The notes below the pieces were generated by a model. It was not told the DNA's origin. It saw nothing but the letters and a program-made list of their open reading frames with translations, and searched no databases. A DNA stretch of 64,000 nt. Origin: Deltaproteobacteria bacterium. Its GTDB lineage: Bacteria > Desulfobacterota > Deferrisomatia > Deferrisomatales > JACRMM01. The first letter of the stretch is position 1; every line of letters starts with the position of its first letter. The DNA lies in the NCBI GenBank assembly GCA_016214985.1, contig JACRMM010000055.1, positions 1-64,000 on the forward strand, in the 5' to 3' direction. Positions 32,581-63,758 of this stretch are shown here, in pieces. The position numbers and the translations under genes were made by a program.

Positions 32581-32630
32581 AGTTCCGGGTTCCGGGTCAA
32601 CTGGGAACTGGGAACTGGGAACTGGAAACT
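32581..32630. repeat. Paired inverted heptamer array
   Basis: GTTCCGG units on the left face three AACTGGG copies plus variants on the right, around GGGTC. It occupies the gap between the epimerase and dehydrogenase genes and belongs to the same family as 31573-31630 and 40366-40430. Confidence 0.8.
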
Positions 32631-37301: not shown

Positions 37302-38528
37302 ATGCTTCGCAACCGTGAGATCATCCTGGGCGTTACCGGCGGTATCGCCGTGTACAAGAGCATCTTCCTGTGCCGCGAGCTCACCCAGCAGGGCGCGAAC
37401 GTGCACGTGGTGATGACGAAGAACGCGATGGAGTTCGTCACGCCGCTGACCTTCCAGACCATCTCCGGCAACACGGTCACCCACGACCTGTTCGAGCTCT
37501 TCCACGCCTCTCAGATCGGCCACGTCGCCCTGGCCGACCGGGCCCATGCGCTGGTGGTCGCGCCGGCCACCGCGAACATCCTGGGCAAGGTGGCCAACGG
37601 TCTGGCCGACGACTTCCTCTCCACCATGATCATGGCCACGCGCGTGCCCGTGCTGTTCGCCCCCGCCATGAACACCGTGATGTGGGACAGCCCCGCCGTG
37701 CAGCGAAACCTGCGCACCCTGGCCGAGGCCGGGCACCACTTCGTCGAGCCCGATGAGGGGGAGCTCGCGTGCGGGGTCCACGGCCGGGGCAAGATGGCCT
37801 CACCGGAGGAGATCGTCGAGGCGCTCGAGACCCTCTTCTGCCCGAAGGACCTCACCGGCGAGCGCATCCTGGTCACCGCCGGACCGACGGTGGAGCCCAT
37901 CGACCCGGTGCGGTTCGTCTCCAACCACTCGTCGGGCAAGATGGGGTATGCCATGGCGCGCGCCGCAGCACGGCGCGGCGCCGACGTAGTGCTGGTGAGC
38001 GGCCCCACGTGCCTCCCACCACCCCGCCGGGCGCGGATCGTTCCGGTGAAGACCGCGGACCAGATGTGCGAGGCCGTCCTTGCCGAGGCCGCCGCGGCCA
38101 CGGTCGTGATCAAGGCCGCGGCGGTGTGCGACTGGCGGCCGGCCGCTTCGGCCCCGGAGAAGATCAAGAAGGCCCGAGGGGCAGGGCTGACCCTGGCGCT
38201 CGAGGCCAACCCCGACATCCTGCGCGAGCTCGGGCAGCGCAAGCGCGACGGCCAGCTCCTCGTGGGCTTCGCGGCCGAGACCACGGATCTCGTAACCCAC
38301 GCCCGCGCCAAGCTCCGAGAGAAGAATCTCGACCTCATCGTGGCGAACGACGTCACGGCGCCCGGCGCCGGCTTCCACGCCGACACCAACGCGGTGCGCA
38401 TCCTGGGCGCCGACGGCAGCGAGGTGGGGGTGCCCCTGGCCACCAAGGACCGGGTGGCGGACCGGGTGCTGGATTGCGTCGTGAAGATAAGGAAGCGGTC
38501 AGCCGTCAGCTCTCAGCGGTCAGCCTGA
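37302..38528 (+). CDS. coaBC: Bifunctional phosphopantothenoylcysteine decarboxylase/synthetase
   Basis: 408 aa, coenzyme A biosynthesis. N-terminal CoaC flavoprotein half: ILGVTGGIAVYKSIFLCREL, the active His in ASQIGHVALADRA and PAMNTVMWDSP; C-terminal CoaB half: ILVTAGPTVEPIDPVRFVSN and KAAAVCDWRPA. The normal domain seems to end near DCVVKIRK; the last residues and the stop codon come from the first unit of the 84-bp repeat array, which starts at 38492. Confidence 0.95.
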   Translation: MLRNREIILGVTGGIAVYKSIFLCRELTQQGANVHVVMTKNAMEFVTPLTFQTISGNTVTHDLFELFHASQIGHVALADRAHALVVAPATANILGKVANGLADDFLSTMIMATRVPVLFAPAMNTVMWDSPAVQRNLRTLAEAGHHFVEPDEGELACGVHGRGKMASPEEIVEALETLFCPKDLTGERILVTAGPTVEPIDPVRFVSNHSSGKMGYAMARAAARRGADVVLVSGPTCLPPPRRARIVPVKTADQMCEAVLAEAAAATVVIKAAAVCDWRPAASAPEKIKKARGAGLTLALEANPDILRELGQRKRDGQLLVGFAAETTDLVTHARAKLREKNLDLIVANDVTAPGAGFHADTNAVRILGADGSEVGVPLATKDRVADRVLDCVVKIRKRSAVSSQRSA

Positions 38529-38995
38529 AGCTGTCAGACGATTCGTGCAACGCCTTGGCTGAAAGCGGATCGTCTGAAGCGGTCAGCCGTCAGCTCTCAG
38601 CGGTCAGCCTGAAGCTGTAAGACGATTCGTGCAACGCCTTGGCTGAAAGCGGATCGTCTGAAGCGGTCAGCCGTCGGCTCTCAGCGGTCAGCCTGAAGCC
38701 GTGAGACGATTCGTGCAACGCCTTGGCTGAAAGCGGATCGTCTGAAGCGGTCAGCCGTCAGCTCTCAGCGGTCAGCCTGAAGCTGTAAGACGATTCGTGC
38801 AACGCCTTGGCTGAAAGCGGATCGTCTGAAGCGGTCAGCCGTCAGCTCTCAGCGGTCAGCCTGAAGCCGTAAGACGATTCGTGCAACGCCTTGGCTGAAA
38901 GCGGATCGTCTGAAGCGGTCAGCCGTCAGCTCTCAGCGGTCAGCCTGAAGCTGTAAGACGATTCTTGCAACGCCTTGGCTGAAAGCTGATCGCTG
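38492..38995 (+). repeat. Tandem array of six 84-bp units
   Basis: Unit starts at 38492, 38576, 38660, 38744, 38828 and 38912, exactly 84 bases apart, each beginning GAAGCGGTCAGCCGTC and differing at only a few positions. Units contain internal imperfect copies of GGTCAGCC/CTCAGCGG and short inverted parts. The array overlaps the last codons of coaBC and ends just before the ugd ribosome site, so it lies in the transcript between them. It is not CRISPR: there are no variable spacers. Confidence 0.97.
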
Positions 38996-39024
38996 ACAGC
39001 TGATCGCCATCTTCGGAGGAGCTC

Positions 39025-40365: not shown

Positions 40366-40430
40366 GTTCCGGGTACCGCGTCCCGCGTACCTGTCCCAAC
40401 CCGGAACCCGGAACCCGGAACGCGGAACAC
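40366..40430. repeat. Paired inverted heptamer array
   Basis: Left units such as GTTCCGG and GTACCGC face three AACCCGG copies and variants on the right around CCTGTCCC. Fills the ugd-uxs gap. Same family as at 31.6 and 32.6 kb. Confidence 0.8.
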
Positions 40431-52876: not shown

Positions 52877-53155
52877 ATGGAGATCCAAGCCACGTACGAA
52901 GACGGCCACTTGCTCTTCGATGAAGCCGTAACACTCAAACATCCTCGAATCCGAGTTACAGTCGTTGTTGCGGATGACGAGGTTGGAGAGCTCGAACAAC
53001 AGATTGGCAGTTCCAATGGATCTGTGCGAGAATATCCTATTCTTGGGAGGCTTGCTGCCATTCTAGGTCCCTATGCAAGACAACGGAGAGGCTATTCGAT
53101 CGGAGAGGACCGGAGGACATTAGGCGATGTTTTGATGGAGAAGTACGGCCAATGA
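52877..53155 (+). CDS. Antitoxin-like protein 4, partner of PIN-aminotransferase copy A
   Basis: 92 aa. IQATYEDGHLLFDEAVTL at the N-terminus; C-terminal ILGPYARQRRGYSIGEDRR and LMEKYGQ tail shared in type with antitoxin 5. GCAAGGAGTAAGAC gives a clear ribosome site. ATGA overlap with the PIN-fusion gene. DNA here is less GC-rich than the flanking sugar genes. Confidence 0.82.
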   Translation: MEIQATYEDGHLLFDEAVTLKHPRIRVTVVVADDEVGELEQQIGSSNGSVREYPILGRLAAILGPYARQRRGYSIGEDRRTLGDVLMEKYGQ

Positions 53156-54822
53156 GACATCTCGTCTTCGATACCAACGTATTGGTCGACGTTGCCATTT
53201 TCCGGGGGTTGTACTATCAGGAGACCGCTCGGCTCTTGGAGAAGGTCGCAAGAGGCGATGCCGCCGGTTGGACAGCCTCATACACGCCCCCTACCATGGT
53301 CTATCTCATCGAACGACAGCTGAGGGCGGAAGGCGCTTCTACGACCGAGGCTCATCAGCGAGCCTGCGAGGCGACGCGGGAGGTGCTACGGCACTTGAGC
53401 ATCCTGCCCATGACGGGAACCCAACTGCTCGACTCGCTCGAAGGAGCGCCCATCGACTTTGAAGACCATCTGATCTCAGTCGCCGCCAAGGCGCACCTGA
53501 GGGACTGCGTGATCGTCAGCCGGGACAAGACCTTTGAGTCCCTGGGCCTGCCGGTCTATCATCCCGCAGACCTCGACGACCGGAGCGTAACGAGCGACGC
53601 GAACCGCGCAGTCGACTTTGTGGATCTCAAAGCGCAGCAGCTCGCAATCTGGAAGCCTCTGGAAGAGCGCCTGCACCGCGTCCTCCGCCACGGCCACTAC
53701 ATCATGGGTCCCGAGGTCGCGGAGCTCGAAAAGACGCTCGGCGAGTACGTGGGCGTCAAACACGCCATCGGCTGCTCTTCGGGCACCGACGCCCTGCTGC
53801 TCCCGCTGATGGCCCTCGGCGTGGGCCCCGGCGACGCCGTGTTCACGACGCCCTTCACCTTTATCGCCACCGCTGAGGTCATCTCGCTCCTCGGTGCGAC
53901 ACCAGTCTTCGTCGACATCGACCCCCTCACCTACAACATCGACCCGGCGCAGTTGGAAAAGGCGATCCGTGCCCTGAAGTCCGGCGACTCGTCCCTCCAC
54001 CCGCTCCCAACTCGGAACTCGGAACTCGGAACTCGGAACTCGGAACTGGGAACCCCGGCCTCCCAACTCGGAACCCGGACCTGGGAACTCCGCGCTCACG
54101 CCGAAGGCAGTGATCGCGGTAGACCTCTACGGCCTCCCCGCCGACTACGACCGCCTGCAGGAGCTCTGCACCGCCGACGGCCTCTTTCTTCTCGAAGACG
54201 CCGCCCAGTCGTTCGGGGGCGAGTACAAGGGCAGAAAGGCCTGCTCCTTCGGCGACGCGGCGGCCACGAGCTTCTTCCCGGCCAAGCCCCTGGGCTGCTA
54301 TGGCGACGGCGGCATGGTCTTCACCAACCGCGACGACCTCGCCGAGATCTGCCGCTCGCTCCTGGTGCACGGAAAGGGGAAGGACAAGTACGACAACGTG
54401 CGCATCGGCCTCAACGCCCGGCTCGACACGCTCCAGGCCGCGATCGTCTTGGCGAAATTTGAGGTCTTCCCTGATGAGTTGGAGAAGCGGCAGCACGTCG
54501 CCAGGAGATACACCGAGGCGCTCGCCCCTCACCCCCACCTCCTCACATCCCCGAGGGGCTGAAGTCCGCCTGGGCGCAGTACACGGTGCGCCTGGCCGGC
54601 GGACAGCGGAGTGCGATAGAATCGGCCTTGAAGAAGGCCGGCGTTCCCACCGCCGTCTACTATCCCAAACCCCTGCACCTCCAGGGGGCGTTCCGGCCGC
54701 TGGGATACAAAGACGGAGACTTCCCGGAGTCGGAGCGGGCGAGCGGTGAGGTGATCAGCCTGCCCTTTGGGCCCTATCTCGACGACGCCGCGGCGCACAG
54801 GGCCACAGAGGCGCTGCGCTAG
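53152..54822 (+). pseudogene. PIN toxin-sugar aminotransferase fusion, copy A (two frameshifts)
   Basis: Residues 1-140 are a complete PIN domain (Asp7 in VFDTNVLVD, Glu54, Asp102/105, Asp125). With no stop it runs into a WbpE/WlbC-type DegT aminotransferase from VDFVDLKAQQ (154) through MGPEVAELEK and CSSGTDALLLPLMAL. A heptamer array at 54009-54092 is inserted and the frame changes; the second part (VIAVDLYGLPADYDR...PAKPLGCYGDGG) is in another frame up to 54562, and the third (AQYTVRLAGG...AVYYPKPLHL) returns to the first. The PIN domain is therefore expressed, but the aminotransferase is broken; the frame-1 product stops at 54462. Confidence 0.85.
54009..54092 (+). repeat. Heptamer array inside aminotransferase copy A
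   Basis: Five AACTCGG, one AACTGGG, an interruption, then four variant units. Located between the codons for AIRALK and VIAVDLYG, where copy B has a shorter array. The seven-base period is not a multiple of three, which explains the frameshift here. Confidence 0.9.
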
Positions 54823-55059
54823 GGAAGGGGAGCGGACTCAGAGGGGTTGGTTCTCGAAAAGAAGGAGACCTTCTCAGCGGGCTCAGCGGCTCAGCGAGAG
54901 AGGAAGGCTCAAAAGCTTCTTCACGCAGAGCCGCAGAGAACGCAAAGGTGTCCGTTCGTAAGCAGAAAGAGTTTTTCTCAGCCGCGAGGACCGGAGCCCC
55001 TTGCAGTCGAAACCTGACGAGTGGGGGACCCCAGCCCTGGAAGAAAAGGAGAGGAGACG
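54823..55059. other. Spacer with degenerate repeats before antitoxin 5
   Basis: No gene. It holds repeated CTCAGCGG/CTCAGCGA motifs near 54877-54897 and a CACGCAGAGCCGCAGAGAACGC-type purine-rich stretch near 54920, resembling low-complexity intergenic filler. GGAGAGGAGACG near its end is the ribosome site of antitoxin 5. Confidence 0.55.
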
Positions 55060-55302
55060 ATGCGGATCGAAGTAACGACGGAAGGCAACCACTTGGTCCT
55101 GCCGAGAGGGCTGAGGCTTCGACCCACCCAGCAAAAGCTTACGGTGGACATCCCCGACGAGGCCATCTCCCCAGTGGACTCTCCCTCGCGCCAGCAGATT
55201 GACCAAATCCTCGGCCCCTATGCCCTCGTGCGGCCTGCGCGGTCCGCCGCGGAGGACAAGGCAATCTGGCACGAACATTTGGAGGAGAAGTACCTTCGAT
55301 GA
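55060..55302 (+). CDS. Antitoxin-like protein 5, partner of PIN-aminotransferase copy B
   Basis: 80 aa. RIEVTTEGNHLVLPRGLRL and LTVDIPDEAI at the N-terminus are almost the same as in orphan antitoxin 6; the C-terminal ILGPYALVRPARSAAEDK and HLEEKYLR tail differs from antitoxin 4 while keeping its pattern. ATG 55060 follows GAGAGGAGACG. ATGA overlap with the fusion gene. Confidence 0.84.
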   Translation: MRIEVTTEGNHLVLPRGLRLRPTQQKLTVDIPDEAISPVDSPSRQQIDQILGPYALVRPARSAAEDKAIWHEHLEEKYLR

Positions 55303-56993
55303 GCTCACGACACGTGGTTTTTGACCTGAATGTATTGGTCAATCTCTTCTTGCGTCGAGGAGATTCCGCGGCCGCAGAAGCCCTCTCCGACAAAGTCCTG
55401 GAGGGCAAGATCACCGGTTGGGTGGCGGCGCAGTCGTTGCCCACTTTGGAGTATTTACTGGTAAAGCAGCTGAAGAACGATGGACTGACGCCCACGGAAG
55501 CCCGAGCGTCGGTGCGAGAACTGCTGCAGTGGCTGACGACACACTACCGGGTCCTCTCGCTGCCGGGCGTGGAAACGGTCGACAAGCTGCACGGGGCACA
55601 TGATCTTGAGGACGCACAGATCGCGCTGGCAGCCACGGCCTTGGCCGGGGCCGCCTGTATCGTCACGGAGGACAAATCGTTCGATGCGTGCGGCTTGGTG
55701 CCAGCCCTTTCCCCTGCTGAGGTTTTGGCCGCCCTCTCAGAGCGAGAAGCATCACGGGCGATCCAGTTTGTGGACCTTCAAGAACAGCAACGTACGGTGC
55801 TCCCGTCGTTGGAGGGTCGTCTCAGGACGGTCCTCCGCCACGGCCACTACATCATGGGCCCCGAGGTCGCGGAGCTCGAGAAGAAGCTCGCCGAGTACGT
55901 GGGCGTCAAGCACGCCATCGGCTGCTCCTCCGGCACCGACGCCCTGCTGCTCCCGCTGATGGCCCTCGGCGTGGGCCCGGGCGACGCCGTGTTCACGACC
56001 CCGTTCACCTTCATCGCCACCGCCGAGGTCATCTCGCTCCTCGGCGCCACACCAGTCTTCGTCGACATCGATCCCCTCACCTACAACATCGACCCGGCCC
56101 AGCTCGAAAAGGCGATCCGAGCCGTCAAGACGAACGATCCAGCGATCTATCCTCTCCCAACTCGGAACTCGGAACCCGGAACTCGGAACGCCGGCCTCCG
56201 GCCGGCCGGCGTGATCGCGGTAGACCTCTACGGCCTCCCCGCCGACTACGACCGCCTGCAGGAGCTCTGCACCGCCAATGGTCTCTTCCTCCTCGAAGAC
56301 GCCGCCCAGTCGTTCGGGGGCGAGCATAAGGGCAGAAAGGCCGGCTCCTTCGGCGACGCAGCGGCCACGAGCTTCTTCCCGGCCAAACCCCTGGGCTGCT
56401 ACGGCGACGGCGGCATGGTCTTCACCAACCGCGACGATATCGCCGAGATCTGCCGTTCTCTGCTGGTCCACGGCAAGGGGAAGGAGAAGTACGACAACGT
56501 GCGCATCGGCCTCAATGCCCGTCTCGACACGCTGCAGGCCGCGATCGTCTTGGCAAAGTTCGAGGCGTTTCCGGCCGAAGTGGAAGCGCGGCAAGACGTG
56601 GCTCGGCGGTACACCGAGCTTCTGTCCCCCGGTCCCGGACCCAGGCCTCAGGACTCAGGACTCGGAACAGGGAACACGGCACTGGGAGCTCGGATCTCGG
56701 GCCTACGCCCTCCCCACGTGCCCGGCGGCTGCAAGTCTGCCTGGGCGCAGTACACGATCCGCCTCGCCGCGGGTCAAAGGACTGCGATAGAATCGGTCCT
56801 CAAGAGGGCAGGCGTTCCCACCGCCGTGTACTACCCCAAACCGCTGCACCTCCAGGGAGCCTTCCGGCCTCTTGGGTACGGGCAGGGAGACTTTCCCGAG
56901 TCGGAGCGGGCGAGCACCGAGGTGCTGAGTCTGCCTTTTGGCCCGCATCTCGACGACGCGTCGGCGCACAAGGTCACCGCGGCGCTGCGCTGA
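55299..56993 (+). CDS. PIN toxin-sugar aminotransferase fusion, copy B (intact)
   Basis: 564 aa, one unbroken frame. PIN domain 1-140 with Asp9, Glu51, Asp102/105 and Asp125; DegT/DnrJ aminotransferase from IQFVDLQEQQ (155) to the end, with GHYIMGPEVAELEKKL, CSSGTDALLL, PLP-binding LLEDAAQSFGG (Asp334) and Schiff-base Lys363 in SFFPAKPLGCYGDGG. It is probably the WbpE/WlbC-type enzyme aminating C3 of UDP-3-keto-GlcNAcA, completing the WlbA-WlbB/WecB pathway. Two heptamer inserts (near residues 288-304 and 450-470) keep the frame. GTG 55770 is an in-frame possible internal start for the aminotransferase alone, without a good ribosome site. Confidence 0.9.
   Translation: MSSRHVVFDLNVLVNLFLRRGDSAAAEALSDKVLEGKITGWVAAQSLPTLEYLLVKQLKNDGLTPTEARASVRELLQWLTTHYRVLSLPGVETVDKLHGAHDLEDAQIALAATALAGAACIVTEDKSFDACGLVPALSPAEVLAALSEREASRAIQFVDLQEQQRTVLPSLEGRLRTVLRHGHYIMGPEVAELEKKLAEYVGVKHAIGCSSGTDALLLPLMALGVGPGDAVFTTPFTFIATAEVISLLGATPVFVDIDPLTYNIDPAQLEKAIRAVKTNDPAIYPLPTRNSEPGTRNAGLRPAGVIAVDLYGLPADYDRLQELCTANGLFLLEDAAQSFGGEHKGRKAGSFGDAAATSFFPAKPLGCYGDGGMVFTNRDDIAEICRSLLVHGKGKEKYDNVRIGLNARLDTLQAAIVLAKFEAFPAEVEARQDVARRYTELLSPGPGPRPQDSGLGTGNTALGARISGLRPPHVPGGCKSAWAQYTIRLAAGQRTAIESVLKRAGVPTAVYYPKPLHLQGAFRPLGYGQGDFPESERASTEVLSLPFGPHLDDASAHKVTAALR
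56159..56194 (+). repeat. Heptamer array inside aminotransferase copy B, first site
   Basis: Four units (AACTCGG, AACTCGG, AACCCGG, AACTCGG) plus a remnant, at the same codon position as the longer array in copy A. It encodes TRNSEPGTRN within the enzyme and does not break the frame. Confidence 0.88.
56646..56701 (+). repeat. Degenerate heptamer array inside aminotransferase copy B, second site
   Basis: Eight imperfect 7-base units (CCTCAGG, ACTCAGG, ACTCGGA and variants) encoding a Gly/Pro/Ser-rich loop before VPGGCKSAWAQYT. Copy A has only a short linker at this position. Confidence 0.75.
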
Positions 56994-57130
56994 AGAAGGG
57001 GCGAGGAAGCGGACCGTTACGGAGACGGGCGAGCGTCAGCAGAGAGTGCCGAGTCGCTGCGCCTTCTTCCCCGGACCGACCGTGCCAACATAGGCGAGTG
57101 CCGCGAATCCGACAACGAGGGCGATCGACC

Positions 57131-57403
57131 ATGCGGATTGAAGTCACGACGGAAGGCAACCGGCTCATTCTCCCGAAGGGTCTCAGACTCCGATCCGCTC
57201 AACGGAAATTGACCGTAGAGATCCCTGACGACGCGATTGAAACCTCTGAGCCGGCGAACACTGCGGAGCCCGCCTGCGCAGCGTCGAGTCGCGTCAGCGA
57301 GCTCCTCTCCGACCTTCACGGAATCCTCGGAGAGGGATATCGGTACGTGCCGTCCGGAACGACCGACCGGGAGCTCCTTGCAGAAGCTCTGGTCCTCGGA
57401 TGA
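57131..57403 (+). CDS. Antitoxin-like protein 6, orphan
   Basis: 90 aa. The N-terminal 35 residues (RIEVTTEGNRLILPKGLRL; LTVEIPDDAI) are nearly those of antitoxin 5; the C-terminal half (LLSDLHGILGEGYRYVPSG) differs. No toxin gene follows: the 4,6-dehydratase begins 57 bases later. It may be the remains of a third antitoxin/PIN cassette or an extra antitoxin acting on copy B. ATG 57131 chosen by alignment with antitoxin 5. Confidence 0.72.
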   Translation: MRIEVTTEGNRLILPKGLRLRSAQRKLTVEIPDDAIETSEPANTAEPACAASSRVSELLSDLHGILGEGYRYVPSGTTDRELLAEALVLG

Positions 57404-57460
57404 CGACGGCCTGAGTTGACCCATTGACTCGCCTCCTTGACGCACAGAAGGACGCAGCCC

Positions 57461-58504
57461 ATGCGCGATAAGATCTCAACGGCGCTAGAGGGAAAGCACA
57501 TGCTCGTGACGGGTGGCACCGGTAGTTTCGGCCACGCTATCGTCAAGGAACTGGCACGCTTTCAGCCCGCGTCCATCAGTATCTTCAGCAGGGATGAGAA
57601 GAAACAATACGAGATGCAGCACGAATTTTCGCATGAGTGCCGCCTGCGATTTTTCCTCGGAGACGTCAGAGACTTTGAAAGAACTCGGGAAGTAATGCGC
57701 GGCATCGACATCGTTTTTCACGCAGCCGCCTTGAAGCAGGTCCCAAATTGCGAATTTGCACCTTTCGAGGCTGTGCGCACCAACATCGTTGGCGCTGAAA
57801 ATCTTCGACGCGCCGCGGTGGAAGCAGGCGTTAAGACAGTTATTGCAATTAGTACTGACAAGGCTGTCAAACCAGTGAATGTCATGGGAATGTCAAAGGC
57901 CATACAAGAACGGATTATGCTGAATCCAACCAACGAGAGCGAAAGTACTAAGTTCGTCTGCGTTCGGTATGGCAATGTGATGGGAAGTCGCGGGAGTGTG
58001 GTGCCCCTCTTCTGCGACTACATTCTCAAGGGCGAAGCACTCCCCATCACCCACCCCGACATGACACGCTTCCAACTCACGCTCCAGGAGGCTGTGCACC
58101 TTGTGCTGTGGGCTACGGTCAGGGGGGAGAGCGGGGACCTCTGGGTGCGCAAGATGCCAGCCACGACCATTCGGACTCTGGGAAGGGTTCTGGCATATGG
58201 CATGACGGGAAACGAGGAGTACCCGGAGAGGATTGTGGGAACCCGGCCAGGAGAGAAGATGCACGAAGTCCTGGTGTCAGAAGAGGAGATGTGGCGGGCG
58301 ACGGAATTGGAGGACCACTTCCTCATTCCGTCCTGGGCAAAATCTCAGGATACGCCTGGTATCACGGAAGGTGCCTTCAAGGAGTATTCGTCAGAAGATG
58401 TTCACCAATTGTCTGAGGGCGAACTCCTTGAGATGCTTATGGCAGATGGTTGGATCACACCTGAGCACCGCCCCGGTCCGAAGGCGCGACTATCCCATGG
58501 CTAG
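57461..58504 (+). CDS. UDP-GlcNAc 4,6-dehydratase-like polysaccharide biosynthesis protein
   Basis: 347 aa of the CapE/PseB/FnlA-type short-form dehydratases. NAD motif VTGGTGSFGHAIVKEL, SRDEKKQYEMQHEF, HAAALKQVPNCEFAPFE, the Thr-Asp-Lys active site ISTDKAVKPVNVMG followed by SKAIQERIM, and YGNVMGSRGSVVPLF are all typical. First gene of a block with lower GC. Whether C5 is inverted cannot be read reliably. Overlaps the next aminotransferase by 8 bases. Confidence 0.9.
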   Translation: MRDKISTALEGKHMLVTGGTGSFGHAIVKELARFQPASISIFSRDEKKQYEMQHEFSHECRLRFFLGDVRDFERTREVMRGIDIVFHAAALKQVPNCEFAPFEAVRTNIVGAENLRRAAVEAGVKTVIAISTDKAVKPVNVMGMSKAIQERIMLNPTNESESTKFVCVRYGNVMGSRGSVVPLFCDYILKGEALPITHPDMTRFQLTLQEAVHLVLWATVRGESGDLWVRKMPATTIRTLGRVLAYGMTGNEEYPERIVGTRPGEKMHEVLVSEEEMWRATELEDHFLIPSWAKSQDTPGITEGAFKEYSSEDVHQLSEGELLEMLMADGWITPEHRPGPKARLSHG

Positions 58505-59594
58505 GCAGATTCCGCTCTTCAAGGTCTTCCTTCCCCCGGAAGACGCACTCATCCCACGCCTTCGTGACGTTCTATACAGCGGGCAGGTGAGTGAAGGGCA
58601 ACCTGTCTACGACTTTGAGAAAAGGTTCTCTAATTTCGTGGGTCTGCCCAATGTCCTGTCCTTTTATAGTGGGACAGCGGCCCTGCACACCGCCCTACTT
58701 CTGGCGGGGGTCACACCTGGTGACGACGTGCTTTCAACCGCCATGACCGCTGAGCCCACGAACATGGCCATCCGCCATGCCGGTGCCAACGTGGTGTGGG
58801 CTGACGTAGACCCCAGGAACGGAAACCTCACTGCAACGTCGATCTCCGAACACATGACTCCTAGGGTTCGTGCAATCATGGTGGTCCATTATGGCGGCAT
58901 TCCCGCGCCGATGGCCGACATCCAGTCCATCGCAGAAGCGTGGGGAGTTCCGGTGATCGAAGACGCCGCCCACGCGCTGGGCGCACGTTACGGCAACGCC
59001 CCGATCGGCAGCAACTCCGACTACACCATATTCTCCCTTCAGGCGATCAAGCATATGACCACCATCGACGGTGGGATGCTCGCCTGCAAGAATCCTGAGC
59101 ACTTGTTCGTCGGACGGAAGCTGCGTTGGTTTGGCATCGATAGGGCGGCACCTCGAACCGAGGTCGACGTCGATGTGGTTGGGTACAAATACCACATGAA
59201 CAACGTCAACGCGACGATTGGGCTCGTTCAGCTTGATTTCATAGGCCCCGTCGTTCAACGCCACATTGAAAATGGAAAGTTCTTTGATGTGGCACTTCAG
59301 AGTATCCCAGGGATTGAGCTCTGCCAATGGGACCCGAAGGCTGAACCATCGTACTGGTTCTACACCGTGCTCGCTGACGACAGAGACGGACTTTCTCGCA
59401 GGCTAACTGAATTCGGCGTCGCCAACTCCACAGCACACAAACGCAACGACACGCATTCCGTCTTCGCTGGAAGCAGAAGAGAACTTCCAGGACTCGATCG
59501 CTTCTACTCTCGCATGCTTCACATTCCTTGCGGTTGGTGGGTTGGAGATATAGACAGAGAGCAAATAGCCAACGTGATTCGCCACGGTTGGTAA
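58497..59594 (+). CDS. DegT/DnrJ/EryC1 aminotransferase
   Basis: 365 aa PLP enzyme. QVSEGQPVYDFEKRF, FYSGTAALHTALLL, PVIEDAAHALGA and the Schiff-base Lys185 in SLQAIKHMTTIDGG are present. It likely aminates the 4-keto sugar from the dehydratase. The C-terminal IPCGWWVGDID segment is shared in style with the aminotransferase at 60.2 kb, implying that the two are distant paralogues. ATG 58497 overlaps the dehydratase stop region. Confidence 0.9.
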   Translation: MARQIPLFKVFLPPEDALIPRLRDVLYSGQVSEGQPVYDFEKRFSNFVGLPNVLSFYSGTAALHTALLLAGVTPGDDVLSTAMTAEPTNMAIRHAGANVVWADVDPRNGNLTATSISEHMTPRVRAIMVVHYGGIPAPMADIQSIAEAWGVPVIEDAAHALGARYGNAPIGSNSDYTIFSLQAIKHMTTIDGGMLACKNPEHLFVGRKLRWFGIDRAAPRTEVDVDVVGYKYHMNNVNATIGLVQLDFIGPVVQRHIENGKFFDVALQSIPGIELCQWDPKAEPSYWFYTVLADDRDGLSRRLTEFGVANSTAHKRNDTHSVFAGSRRELPGLDRFYSRMLHIPCGWWVGDIDREQIANVIRHGW

Positions 59595-60163
59595 TGATGC
59601 TCTCGCGACTTCTTAACCGATTGGAAGTGCTGACAGGCGTTGCAGTGAGCTGCACCGGGACACTCTTGGGATTGCTCCCAAATGATGGCCCATTTTGCCG
59701 AATGAGACTCAGCTATTGGAGAATGAGAGGTTACCATTTCGGGGACGACTCAGTCATCTTTCGCAATGTCTATTTTCTTGGCAAGGTCACCATGGGCAGG
59801 AGCTGTGCAATCTCAAATAACTGCTTTCTCAATGGGGGAGAGGAGGGGATCGACATCGGCGATTATGTGATGATTGGACCCGGCTCGACGGTGGTCGCTT
59901 TCAATCACGGTTTCGCGGACTGCGGAATCCCTATGATAAAGCAGCCTTTTGAACATGCCCGGGTCGTCATGGGGGATGACATCTGGATCGGCGCCAACTG
60001 TACGGTAACCGCAGGCGTCCGTATCGGAACCGGGAGCATCGTTGGGGCCAACTCTGCGGTCACAAAGGACGTTCCTCCCTTCGCGATCGTCGGCGGTGTC
60101 CCTGCCAGAGTAATAGGAAGCCGAAAAGCTACCAAGGTGGAGCAAAACGGCGATGGCGTATAA
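59594..60163 (+). CDS. Hexapeptide-repeat acyltransferase, WcaF/LacA-like
   Basis: 189 aa. Left-handed beta-helix repeats are seen in MGRSCAISNNCFLNGG, IDIGDYVMIGPGSTVV, the catalytic-His region FNHGF, and MGDDIWIGANCTVTAGVRIG. Probably O- or N-acetylates a sugar of this cluster. The ATG at 59594 overlaps the previous stop (TAATG); a second ATG follows at once. Overlaps the next gene by 11 bases. Confidence 0.86.
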   Translation: MMLSRLLNRLEVLTGVAVSCTGTLLGLLPNDGPFCRMRLSYWRMRGYHFGDDSVIFRNVYFLGKVTMGRSCAISNNCFLNGGEEGIDIGDYVMIGPGSTVVAFNHGFADCGIPMIKQPFEHARVVMGDDIWIGANCTVTAGVRIGTGSIVGANSAVTKDVPPFAIVGGVPARVIGSRKATKVEQNGDGV

Positions 60164-61286
60164 CTCTTCAGTCCGACCGACAATTCCTCTATACCGCGTT
60201 CACATGCCCCCGGACGTCCTGGAACTCTTTGGATCAGTGGTCAAGACCGGACAGATTGCGAGCGGTCCAGCCGTTGGACAATTCGAAGGCTTGCTCCAAA
60301 CGTACCTTGGAAATCCATGCGTTACCTCCACGGCCGACGTCTCCTCGTCCATCACGGTAGCTCTTTTCATGGCAGGCGTTCGACCGGGCGACGAGGTCGT
60401 CACCACGCCGATGACCTGCTTGGCGACAACAGCGCCGGTCCGAAATCTGTTCGCGGAAGTGCGCTGGTGCGACGTCGATCCAACAACGGGCAATCTGGAT
60501 CCTGAAGGGCTAGAGAGAAGTCTCTCGTCCCGAACCCGGGCGATTTTGGTCTTTCATTGGGCAGGGAATCCGGCTGACGTCGATTCGATTCGCGCGATAG
60601 GATCATCGTGGGGGATACCCGTAGTGGAAGACGCCGGAGAGGCGCTCGGGTCCGAGTACAAGGGCCGGAAGATCGGCAACTCCGGCTCGGATTACACCGT
60701 TTTTTCCTTTTACCCAAATCGCCACATCAACACCATCGAAGGCGGGGCGATTGCCTTCGGGAAGGAAACAGACTACGAACAAGGTCGCTGGCTCAAGCGC
60801 TACGGGATCCACCACCCGTCTTTTCGAACCGCGGACGGCGAGATAGACCCGAGATCCGACATCCCCGTGGCCGGATGGAACTCCTACATGAACCAAGTCG
60901 CCGCCAGCATCGGAGTAGCCCAAATGAGGCATCTGCCCAGCATCATCGAGCGGCATCACTCGAATGGGCTCTTCTACGACGCGGCGCTGGCTGAGATTCC
61001 CGGAATCACGACGCTAAAACGCCTTCCTCAGACGCGATCCGCCCATTGGGTATATACGTTTCTCTCTGACGACCGGACAGGTCTTATGGCCAGATTGCGC
61101 GCCGAGGGTATCCAGGCTTCCCGAGTCCACATCCGCAATGACATATATTCCTGCTTCGAATCGGCCAAGCAAATTCTACCTGGCGTGGATTTCTTCGATT
61201 CGCACTGCCTCAGCATCCCTTGTGGTTGGTGGCTGCAGCAAGAAGATCTCCACCGCATAGTCGACTGTATCGCGCGCAAGGCGTGA
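60153..61286 (+). CDS. DegT-family protein with Arg in place of the catalytic Lys
   Basis: 377 aa. Overall fold of DegT aminotransferases (GQIASGPAVGQFEGLL; PVVEDAGEALGSEYKGRK), but the PLP-Lys position reads SFYPNRHINTIEGG: aligned with SLQAIKHMTTIDGG of the neighbour, Lys is Arg190 (codon CGC). It therefore cannot form the usual internal aldimine. It could be a PLP-dependent dehydratase-type relative (in ColD a His replaces Lys), a regulatory subunit, or inactive. The remaining reading frame is intact and well kept. Confidence 0.85.
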   Translation: MAYNSSVRPTIPLYRVHMPPDVLELFGSVVKTGQIASGPAVGQFEGLLQTYLGNPCVTSTADVSSSITVALFMAGVRPGDEVVTTPMTCLATTAPVRNLFAEVRWCDVDPTTGNLDPEGLERSLSSRTRAILVFHWAGNPADVDSIRAIGSSWGIPVVEDAGEALGSEYKGRKIGNSGSDYTVFSFYPNRHINTIEGGAIAFGKETDYEQGRWLKRYGIHHPSFRTADGEIDPRSDIPVAGWNSYMNQVAASIGVAQMRHLPSIIERHHSNGLFYDAALAEIPGITTLKRLPQTRSAHWVYTFLSDDRTGLMARLRAEGIQASRVHIRNDIYSCFESAKQILPGVDFFDSHCLSIPCGWWLQQEDLHRIVDCIARKA

Positions 61287-61290
61287 CTTC

Positions 61291-62193
61291 GTGGACCTGA
61301 CCGTCACCGCTTGTCGGCCGGGGAACCTGGAACGCCTACTGGATCTCTTTGACGCGGAGTTCGTCCGTGGCAGGGGTCGCACGGTTCCCCTCAGGCGCCG
61401 CTTCCCTCACATTTTGAGGCCCGAGGCGCTCGACACCCTGTTTACCGCCTCGTCGGGCGACGTCCTTTGCGGGGGAGCAGCGGTTCGAAAATTCGTCTGG
61501 AAGGCAGGCGGACGACTCTGGCAGGGAGCGATGGTGGGGATGGTCTGCACGGCGCCCCAGTTCCGAGGGCGGGGCGTCGGGTCCGCGCTGTTGCGCGGGC
61601 TCACAGTCAAGCTTTCGAAAGGCTCCGTCGACTTCGCAGTGCTTTGGACCTCCAAACACCGCTTCTACGAAAGACTGGGGTGGAAGGCCCACTTAGACTT
61701 GGGACAACTGGGCCGCATCGATTTCACAGAGAAGCCCCCGGCCCAGCCGCCGCTGATCCCGCGCGGATTCGGGGAGGTGGATCTAGACCGCATCGAGAGC
61801 TGCCGCTCCCAACATTGCTCCTCACTCGTCCTGCGAACAGCCTTGGACTATCGCGCCCTCCCCTTTCCGGCCGATAGCGTCGAGTTCTTCTTCTGGGATC
61901 GCGCCCCGAAGGCAGTTGGATACGCCATCGTAGGGCGGCAGGGGAGCACTGGCTACCTCTACGAACTTGTGTCACGAACGGAGGACTTCCATGTATTTTT
62001 GTCGTCCTTCGCTTCGGCGTACACTACATTGTTTGTCAATGAGCATTCATCGGGTCTCTTCTACAATTGGCTTCGGAATCGTCCGCTCGGGACTTGGGAC
62101 CACCAAGACCAAACGCTTTGGTTCCTCCTTTCTCGCGAGATGAGCACCGTCGACCTCTCGGCGTGGCACATCCCGTACATCGACCGCATGTAG
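61291..62193 (+). CDS. GNAT-family acetyltransferase
   Basis: 300 aa. The N-terminal half has the GNAT acetyl-CoA motif: MVGMVCTAPQFRGRGVGSAL followed by FYERLGWKAH. The second half (about 150-300) is a less certain second GNAT-like or Eis-like domain. GTG 61291 starts 5 bases after the previous stop. A sugar or amino-sugar acetylation role is inferred only from the cluster. Confidence 0.75.
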   Translation: MDLTVTACRPGNLERLLDLFDAEFVRGRGRTVPLRRRFPHILRPEALDTLFTASSGDVLCGGAAVRKFVWKAGGRLWQGAMVGMVCTAPQFRGRGVGSALLRGLTVKLSKGSVDFAVLWTSKHRFYERLGWKAHLDLGQLGRIDFTEKPPAQPPLIPRGFGEVDLDRIESCRSQHCSSLVLRTALDYRALPFPADSVEFFFWDRAPKAVGYAIVGRQGSTGYLYELVSRTEDFHVFLSSFASAYTTLFVNEHSSGLFYNWLRNRPLGTWDHQDQTLWFLLSREMSTVDLSAWHIPYIDRM

Positions 62194-62213
62194 GTTTGGG
62201 GAACGGGTGGCGT

Positions 62214-63758
62214 TTGAGCAGAATCAGGAAGAACATTCTCGCCAACTTCTTCGGGCGCGGCTGGGCTGTCATTTCGGCGGTCGCATTCCTCCCCCTTTAC
62301 GTCAGTTTGCTCGGGGTGGAGGCGTATGGCCTCGTAGGCGTCTTCACCTCGCTCCAGGTGATGCTCGCCGTGACAGATATGGGATTGTCGGCCACTCTGA
62401 CACGAGAGGTGGCCCGCCTTTCCTCCGTTGAGGACAGCGCCTCCGACATCCGGGACACAGTCAGAACCATGGAGGTTTGGTATTTCGGCGTCGCGGCACT
62501 CATCATCGGACTCGTCATGGTATTGGCTCCCTTGATCGCGAACCATTGGGTAAAAGCCCAGGCGATCTCGGCCGGCGCGATCGAGACCGCCCTCCGATTG
62601 ATGGGCTTGGCATTCGCACTTCAGGCTGCGTTCACGTTTTACCAAGGTGCGCTCGTCGGGCTGCAGCAACAGGTTTACTTGAACGGCATCTACGTCACAA
62701 TGGGTCTGTTTCGAGCCCTCGGTACCATCGCCACATTGGCACTGCTGTCCTCCACAATAGAGATGTTCGCCCTCTGGCAGGTTGTCTCCAACGTTCTGCA
62801 ACTCATTTGGATCCGGACAGCGGTCTGGCGAGTTCTGCCGGCGTCGACCGCACGGTCGCGTTACCGCCCTGCCATCCTCCGCCACCTGTGGCGCTACTCA
62901 GCCAGCATGCTCGGAATGACCGTTACGTCCTCCATCCTCCTACAGACAGACAAGGTAATCCTGAGTCGAATGCTTCCCTTGGACACGTTTGGTTACTACA
63001 CGCTGGCGTGGACGGTTGCCCAGACCCCAATCTCGGCCTTGAGCAGCCCTGTCTACCAGGCTGTATTCCCCAGACTTACCCAGCACGTCGCCCGCGGTGA
63101 CACTCTCGAGCTGAGTTCCTTCTACCACCGCGCCTCCCAAACAGTCGCCGTCCTGGTACTTCCGTTTGCAGCCTTCATTTGCTTGTTCTCCCGCGAATGC
63201 CTGCTCTTGTGGCTCGGCAATTCGGTTACTGCGGCCAACACCTATCCGCTTGTGCGTCTACTCGTCGTCGCAACAGGATTCACAGGTGTACTGGTCCTCC
63301 CCTACGCTCTCACCCTTGCGCACGGTTGGGCTAGTCTTTCTCTGAAAACAAATGTCGTTAACGTGGTACTGATGATCCCCCTGCTGATCGCACTCACCCA
63401 TTATTTCGGTCCGCCGGGAGCATGCGGATCGCTGGTCGTTCTCAATGCAATGTACCTAACAGTATTTGTAAGCATTCTTCACCGCTACACATTGGTAGGA
63501 GAGCAGCTTCGTTGGTATCTCCGCGACCTCGGCCTGCCGCTCGCGGCCGCGGCGACTCCCCTGGCGCTATTTCGGCAAGTCTTCCCTGCGGCCCTATCTC
63601 GCCCCGTTCTCTTTCTAGCGCTGGGCGCGGTGTGGGTCCTCGCAACTCTTTCAGCCGTCGCAGCGGCCCCCGACGTTCGCAGGGCTGCCCTCGGCGTCCT
63701 CCGAGCCGATTGGCGGCAAGCCATCCGCTCACTGACGCCGAGAGAGCGCCAAGGCTAG
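62214..63758 (+). CDS. Wzx-type oligosaccharide flippase
   Basis: About 514 aa with some 12-14 hydrophobic helices, of the MOP/polysaccharide transporter superfamily. The N-terminus (SRIRKNILANFFGRGWAVIS, VSLLGVEAYGLVGVF) and DKVILSRMLPLDTFGYYTLA region are typical. Moves lipid-linked repeat units across the inner membrane, matching Wzz and the Wzx/Wzy route. TTG 62214 is chosen since homology begins there and residues from 62067 on overlap the acetyltransferase; no better start is visible. Confidence 0.88.
   Translation: MSRIRKNILANFFGRGWAVISAVAFLPLYVSLLGVEAYGLVGVFTSLQVMLAVTDMGLSATLTREVARLSSVEDSASDIRDTVRTMEVWYFGVAALIIGLVMVLAPLIANHWVKAQAISAGAIETALRLMGLAFALQAAFTFYQGALVGLQQQVYLNGIYVTMGLFRALGTIATLALLSSTIEMFALWQVVSNVLQLIWIRTAVWRVLPASTARSRYRPAILRHLWRYSASMLGMTVTSSILLQTDKVILSRMLPLDTFGYYTLAWTVAQTPISALSSPVYQAVFPRLTQHVARGDTLELSSFYHRASQTVAVLVLPFAAFICLFSRECLLLWLGNSVTAANTYPLVRLLVVATGFTGVLVLPYALTLAHGWASLSLKTNVVNVVLMIPLLIALTHYFGPPGACGSLVVLNAMYLTVFVSILHRYTLVGEQLRWYLRDLGLPLAAAATPLALFRQVFPAALSRPVLFLALGAVWVLATLSAVAAAPDVRRAALGVLRADWRQAIRSLTPRERQG

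Follow-up and report, generated by a model that had tools for sequence, protein, structure and literature searches.

The ColD and RfbH (E1) 3-dehydratases are proteins of the DegT family in which the PLP lysine is naturally replaced by histidine, with PMP being used for dehydration. To our knowledge no heteromeric, single-site enzyme of the DegT family has been known previously, and no description of a Lys-less or heterodimeric DegT protein, or of a gene pair such as the one considered here, was found in the open-licence literature. A parallel from outside the family is serine palmitoyltransferase, where the LCB1 subunit lacks both the PLP lysine and further catalytic residues, and where each LCB1/LCB2 heterodimer has been proposed to have a single active site (PMC3794620). 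The deoxyhypusine synthase of trypanosomatids provides a second precedent, with a catalytically dead paralogue (prozyme) activating its sister about 3000-fold (PMC3663545), although its fold and reaction are unrelated to those of the DegT proteins. Within the family, the roles of residues that contact PLP, the amino donor and uracil are taken from Spr1654, ArnB and PseC, and in Spr1654 it is loop residues of the opposite subunit that contact uracil (PMC5936713).

The locus described here lies in a window of 64,000 nucleotides, this being the whole stretch of DNA that was analysed, and has two DegT genes (Table 1), the first (P0002) encoding a protein with the PLP lysine, here called the Lys-DegT, and the second (P0001) a protein without it, here called the partner. 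As with LCB1 and LCB2 there are two related proteins, here of presumed PLP-enzyme fold, one of them Lys-less, but the LCB proteins belong to another PLP family, are eukaryotic and membrane-bound and form a known heterodimer, whereas for the DegT pair a heterodimer is a prediction. The best PDB sequence matches of the partner are the DegT/DnrJ/EryC1/StrS sugar aminotransferases CalS13 and AtmS13 (AtS13), with E values of about 1e-60, and AtmS13 shares an outer clade with the partners in the tree. AtmS13 has the PLP lysine, the O3' histidine and the donor lysine, all three of which have been lost from the partner, and unlike the window pair neither CalS13 nor AtmS13 is described as paired in its match description. 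The homodimeric UDP-sugar 4-aminotransferases ArnB, PseC and Spr1654 have the N1 aspartate, the phosphate serine, the uracil loop and presumably the fold in common with the partner, and the conserved sugar-pocket histidine of ArnB and Spr1654 is also found in it (PMC5936713), but these are active PLP enzymes with a Schiff-base lysine. The partner scores 244.9 bits against the PF01041 profile (curated cut-off 19.8), placing it above the family threshold, and is below the NCBIfam equivalog cut-offs for both PseC (202.3 of 423.5 bits) and ArnB (151.6 of 631).

Table 1. Coordinates of the DegT pair, its neighbours and key codons in the window.
Feature	Position	Strand	Evidence or remark
Nucleotide-sugar 4,6-dehydratase (Polysacc_synt_2), upstream	57437..58504	+	PF02719, E 2.7e-99; start codon uncertain (57437 TTG or 57461 ATG)
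Lys-DegT, presumed active aminotransferase (P0002, 365 aa)	58497..59594	+	PF01041, E 6.5e-75
Codon AAG, Lys185, PLP lysine of P0002	59049..59051	+	Motif FSLQAIKHMTT
Hexapeptide (LbH) acyltransferase, between the two DegT genes	59594..60163	+	PF00132
Partner DegT without PLP lysine (P0001, 377 aa)	60153..61286	+	PF01041, E 1.9e-72; in partner clade
Codon of Cys89 (all of the partner clade have Cys here, all Lys-DegTs of the pair Ala)	60417..60419	+	
Codon CGC, Arg190, PLP-lysine position of P0001	60720..60722	+	Alignment to CalS13/AtmS13/ArnB and DNA reading
GNAT acetyltransferase, directly downstream of partner	61291..62193	+	PF13527, E 2.8e-13
Wzx-type flippase (ORF; true start further in)	62067..63758	+	PF13440/PF01943

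A preliminary description of this DNA had reported an arginine at the Schiff-base lysine site of P0001 in an intact frame, and both observations are borne out. The reading frame is unbroken over its 377 residues, and the motif FSFYPNRHINTIEGG aligns gap-free in phmmer with the PLP-lysine motif of AtmS13, CalS13 and ArnB, with Arg190 falling on the catalytic lysine of AtmS13 (4zwv, 4xau), CalS13 (4zas) and ArnB (1mdo). The internal-aldimine lysine is absent, Arg190 being there instead, and when the alignment was checked for another lysine that might take up the aldimine position, as the preliminary description had allowed, none fell there. The codon had however been placed at 60718-60720, which is wrong by two bases, the letters there reading ATC. 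Amongst the other DegT proteins that were aligned, from the same genome and from related genomes, lysine occupies the column of Arg190 wherever it is covered, with two exceptions: the Arg partner of a Sphingomonadaceae plasmid and a single His protein from a viral contig.

The arginine is not the only change in the cofactor site of P0001. With residue roles carried over to the partners by alignment from Spr1654 and ArnB, the earlier statement that P0001 retains its remaining PLP contacts proves wrong, although it does hold for Asp160, the contact of the pyridine N1, and for Ser185, a phosphate contact. The histidine that contacts O3' has become Glu163, the phosphate turn is Asp62-Val63 in place of Ser-Gly/Ala, with Val63 taking the place of the small residue and Ser64 that of threonine, the aromatic residue that contacts the ring is Cys89 (alanine in the group of the neighbouring Lys-DegT), and the lysine of the amino-donor site is Asn243, a residue also found in PseC (PMC5936713). 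In most other Arg partners the donor-site column has Gly, Ser or Ala. Six canonical PLP and donor residues, the lysine column included, are all present in each of the 82 family members of the Lys-DegT type, and the column of the donor-binding Lys231 of P0002 is conserved at 100% in the Lys-DegTs and not in the partners. Partners that have lysine keep 4-5 of the six, those with Arg 2-4, those with Ser 1-2 and those with Asn 2-4, the range for Lys-less partners overall being 1-4. Columns 63, 64 and 243 jointly have a small residue, Ser/Thr and Lys/Asn/Arg, respectively, in 8 of 9 Lys partners, as against 0 of 54 others. Loss of the lysine along with the other PLP residues is not significant when the tree is taken into account, as there are four independent comparisons, of which 3 of 4 go in one direction in a pair-wise sign test and n=4 cannot give significance.

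Paired DegT genes of which the second is repeatedly without the PLP lysine occur in bacteria of several phyla. An alignment of two Lys proteins, that of the window included, was used as the query of a scan with one genome per species, and in 79 of the best 80 of 143 relatives a second DegT gene lies downstream of the Lys-DegT gene on the same strand, a figure which, the scan being seeded with the Lys gene, says how often that gene has a partner, with the reverse resting on smaller surveys. Within these 79 pairs, again from the best 80 of 143, the genes are adjacent or overlapping in 65, have about one small gene between them in 8 and are further apart in 6; the first gene always has lysine at its Lys site, whilst in the corresponding column of the second gene the counts are 62 Arg, 10 Lys, 5 Ser and 2 Asn. 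According to their record labels the hosts of the best 80 of 143 loci are mostly Pseudomonadota and Bacteroidota with a few Bacillota, Nitrospirota, Planctomycetota and Caldifarciminota, although many of these loci are metagenome bins and the labels are possibly wrong. The order of a Lys-DegT followed directly by an Arg-DegT is also seen in the best plasmid match, from the Sphingomonadaceae, where genes for a flippase, a GNAT protein and a polysaccharide-biosynthesis protein lie around the two.

The pair proved rare in the smaller surveys, occurring in 2 of 201 genomes of one Flavobacteriaceae set and in 3 of 369 genomes of the proteobacterial class to which one host belongs, with the latter contributing one Asn and one Thr partner, and in neither the 201 nor the 369 genomes was there a partner without an adjoining Lys-DegT. 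Across the Lys-seeded scan and both surveys, every partner found has a Lys-bearing paralogue encoded beside it. The Thr partner (locus L148) has glutamate in the Asp160 column (LISEASAALG) and is the most altered member seen. No second pair was present among 395 genomes of the phylum of the window itself, the next best score being 226 bits as against 764.

The partners form one clade, with an SH-aLRT of 97 in a quick tree and values of 100/97 in a careful tree, the columns around the Lys site having been excluded from both, and the nearest relatives of the window partner in it are those of two loci, L062 and L063. On the careful tree there are at least 5 changes between lysine and non-lysine states and at least 7 changes of residue letter, and a topology that unites all Lys-less partners is rejected (p-AU 0.00037), therefore the lysine has been lost more than once, or lost and then regained. 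Partner distances follow those of the Lys-DegTs with a Pearson correlation of 0.88 (78 pairs). Partners are under purifying selection, dN/dS in close pairs being 0.04-0.35 compared with 0.02-0.22 for the Lys gene, and they have a mean pairwise identity of 39%, that of the Lys-DegTs being 56%. The loop Gly33-x-hydrophobic-x-x-Gly38, which corresponds to the uracil loop, is kept in partners (G33 100%, G38 99%), and to judge from its sequence the partner is a functional protein and no relic. That the gene is a decaying duplicate, or its arginine the product of a misalignment or a sequencing error, may have been conceivable whilst, as in the preliminary description, a change in only a single residue was known. 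However, going from AAA or AAG to CGC takes a change at all three codon positions, therefore a single sequencing error cannot explain Arg190, and with the same arginine in so many relatives across phyla and selection that is purifying, the probability left to an explanation of this kind is negligible.

The preliminary description had also suggested that the arginine might mark a new reaction, by analogy with the histidine of ColD. A partner that binds PLP or PMP without forming an aldimine, with arginine in the place of histidine, could be imagined on the grounds that Asp160 and Ser185 are present in most Lys-less partners and that Arg is the commonest replacement of lysine. Such chemistry is nevertheless improbable, as the phosphate turn, the O3' contact and the donor site are altered as well, some of the Ser group have Glu in place of Asp160, and the partners examined have only R, K, S, N or T at the site. 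It is for want of histidine in any examined partner that ColD-type chemistry was set aside. Nor is a new reaction tied to arginine itself favoured, since Arg is one of several replacements and tracks the loss of other PLP residues, and partners that still have lysine share both clade and operon type with the Arg partners.

The main rival to a non-catalytic partner is a PLP-independent enzyme, in which the pocket would have been rebuilt around Cys89, Arg225, His326 and Tyr332 and which would have the amino sugar or its precursor as substrate, at a step preceding or following that of the Lys enzyme. Across 80 partners with a mean identity of 39%, Gly33, Cys89, Trp105, Asp107, Arg225, Trp299, His326, Pro356, Gly358 and Trp360 are conserved at about 100% and Tyr332 at 97%, dN/dS is low, and Cys89 and Tyr332 set the partners apart from the Lys-DegTs, which have Ala and His there; the invariant pocket residues C89, R225, H326 and Y332 could also mean catalysis by the partner in its own right. 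Against this, only Cys89 and Tyr332 are partner-specific, with Arg225, Trp299 and His326 being equally invariant in the Lys-DegTs, and Lys-bearing partners that have most of the PLP residues share the clade. The cysteine is moreover already present in two partnerless Lys-DegTs (L149 1471-2616 and L035 5995-7137), which have the partner-clade motif MTCxATN together with an intact O3' histidine and which look like the type of enzyme that gave rise to the partner; the L149 protein was the single match in its genome in the surveys, a Lys protein with its PLP residues intact. A PLP-independent enzyme is on balance unlikely, if well ahead of the ColD-like alternative.

The genes around the pair point to the pathway it may serve. 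The dehydratase of the window is 70% identical to those adjoining the pair in L062 and L063, and L062 has an LbH acyltransferase gene, 55% identical to that of the window, in the same place between its two DegT genes; in the window the first 11 bases of the partner gene lie within this gene. Homologues of the dehydratase are found in 60, of the GNAT protein in 26 and of the Wzx flippase in 24 of the best 80 of 143 loci, with GNAT and hexapeptide acyltransferases, Wzx flippases and family-2 glycosyltransferases being the neighbours of the pair across loci. On the best reading, the two DegT proteins would together serve the synthesis of a 4-amino sugar that goes into a surface polysaccharide. 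Going by the families of the proteins, the upstream dehydratase would produce a nucleotide-linked 4-keto-6-deoxy sugar, P0002 would be an ordinary PLP aminotransferase responsible for 4-amination of the keto sugar, and N-acylation and export of the amino sugar would then follow. As acyltransferases of the GNAT or hexapeptide type adjoin the pair in many loci, the partner might instead be a stand-alone binding or scaffold protein, for instance for these acyltransferases, without direct contact with the Lys-DegT. The type of acyltransferase however differs among loci whilst the Lys-DegT is constant, and a scaffold is rated marginally lower still than ColD-like chemistry. In several proteobacterial loci (L072, L084 and similar) large TPR/glycosyltransferase-41 (O-GlcNAc-transferase-like) genes adjoin the pair downstream on the minus strand, and in some proteobacterial loci genes for a sigma-54 activator and a histidine kinase lie upstream.

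With a probability of roughly 0.58, P0001 is a non-catalytic, PLP-less partner in a two-gene DegT system, similar to LCB1. A PLP-less subunit is the simplest explanation because the Lys site varies between R, S, N, T and K, the cofactor residues go along with it and the sugar-nucleotide side stays. P0001 would retain its overall fold together with that side of the pocket which takes the nucleotide sugar, with the covalent PLP anchor and other cofactor contacts gone, and would complete, activate or direct P0002 as LCB1 does for LCB2. The reaction of P0002, the absence of PLP from P0001 and the physical association of the predicted subunits are what we infer in this. A non-catalytic partner had been one option of the preliminary description, and it is now better supported by the near-constant pairing in the best 80 of 143 loci and by the variable Lys site, physical pairing being the inferred part. 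A broader proposal, namely that this is a widespread bacterial heteromeric DegT aminotransferase in which an active subunit with Lys is combined with an obligate partner, the PLP site of the partner having disappeared on several independent occasions with the stages still visible (lysine kept; lysine replaced by Arg, Ser, Asn or Thr), is more tentative and its chances fall somewhat short of even.

What counts against a PLP-less partner is the existence of Lys-DegTs that have none, both in phage records and in L075, where a Lys gene of the pair group is alone and the partner gene is absent from the 10-kb locus. Partnerless Lys-DegTs exist, and therefore the Lys enzyme may not need a partner in order to function; that the donor lysine (K231 of P0002) is fully conserved would also fit a self-sufficient Lys homodimer. 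The phage records with Lys proteins of the pair group and no partner are however fragments or only distantly related, those from IMG/VR with partnerless homologues being fragments, and in the viral contigs searched the relatives close to the pair are Lys enzymes only. One phage-contig relative of the Lys-DegT (L041 7965-9063) has a broken reading frame. An AlphaFold model of P0001 from its single sequence is poor (pLDDT 34.1). A natural in-frame read-through of the pair in L070 gave a model with a pLDDT of 93.8 and a pTM of 0.56, in which each half folds but the relative placement of the halves is not predicted, the linker being short enough that it may preclude a dimer. In the PDB this model is closest to CalS13 and AtmS13, with a TM-score of 0.94 by target length, the aligned half being unspecified.

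Proteins of the partner clade match the DegT aminotransferase family and are named aminotransferases in annotation, that of the Sphingomonadaceae plasmid being an example, even though the lysine on which such an activity depends is absent from most of them. Should the pair be heteromeric, attempts to express these O-antigen or exopolysaccharide pathways with one enzyme could fail or yield an incorrect product. The presence of intact and decayed versions in one clade also offers a natural study of the loss of catalysis in a PLP-enzyme subunit, in addition to study by mutation.

Further DegT sequences are found upstream in the window, where two near-duplicate genes (53152-54562 and 55299-56993) have a PIN_3 domain fused in frame to a WecE/WbpE-like DegT domain, with small antitoxin-like ORFs that have near-identical starts beside them (55021-55302 and 57098-57403). 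The DegT part of both contains the 7-base repeat AACTCGG. The array at 54009-54090 has 11.7 copies and coincides with a break in the frame, and the one at 56159-56189 has 4.4 copies and leaves the frame open; slipped-strand variation at these arrays is possible. The heptanucleotide arrays AACTGGG (32599-32630) and AACCCGG (40398-40428) resemble the AACTCGG array of these genes, and a tandem array at 38492-38996 consists of 6 copies of an 84-base unit with 97% matches.
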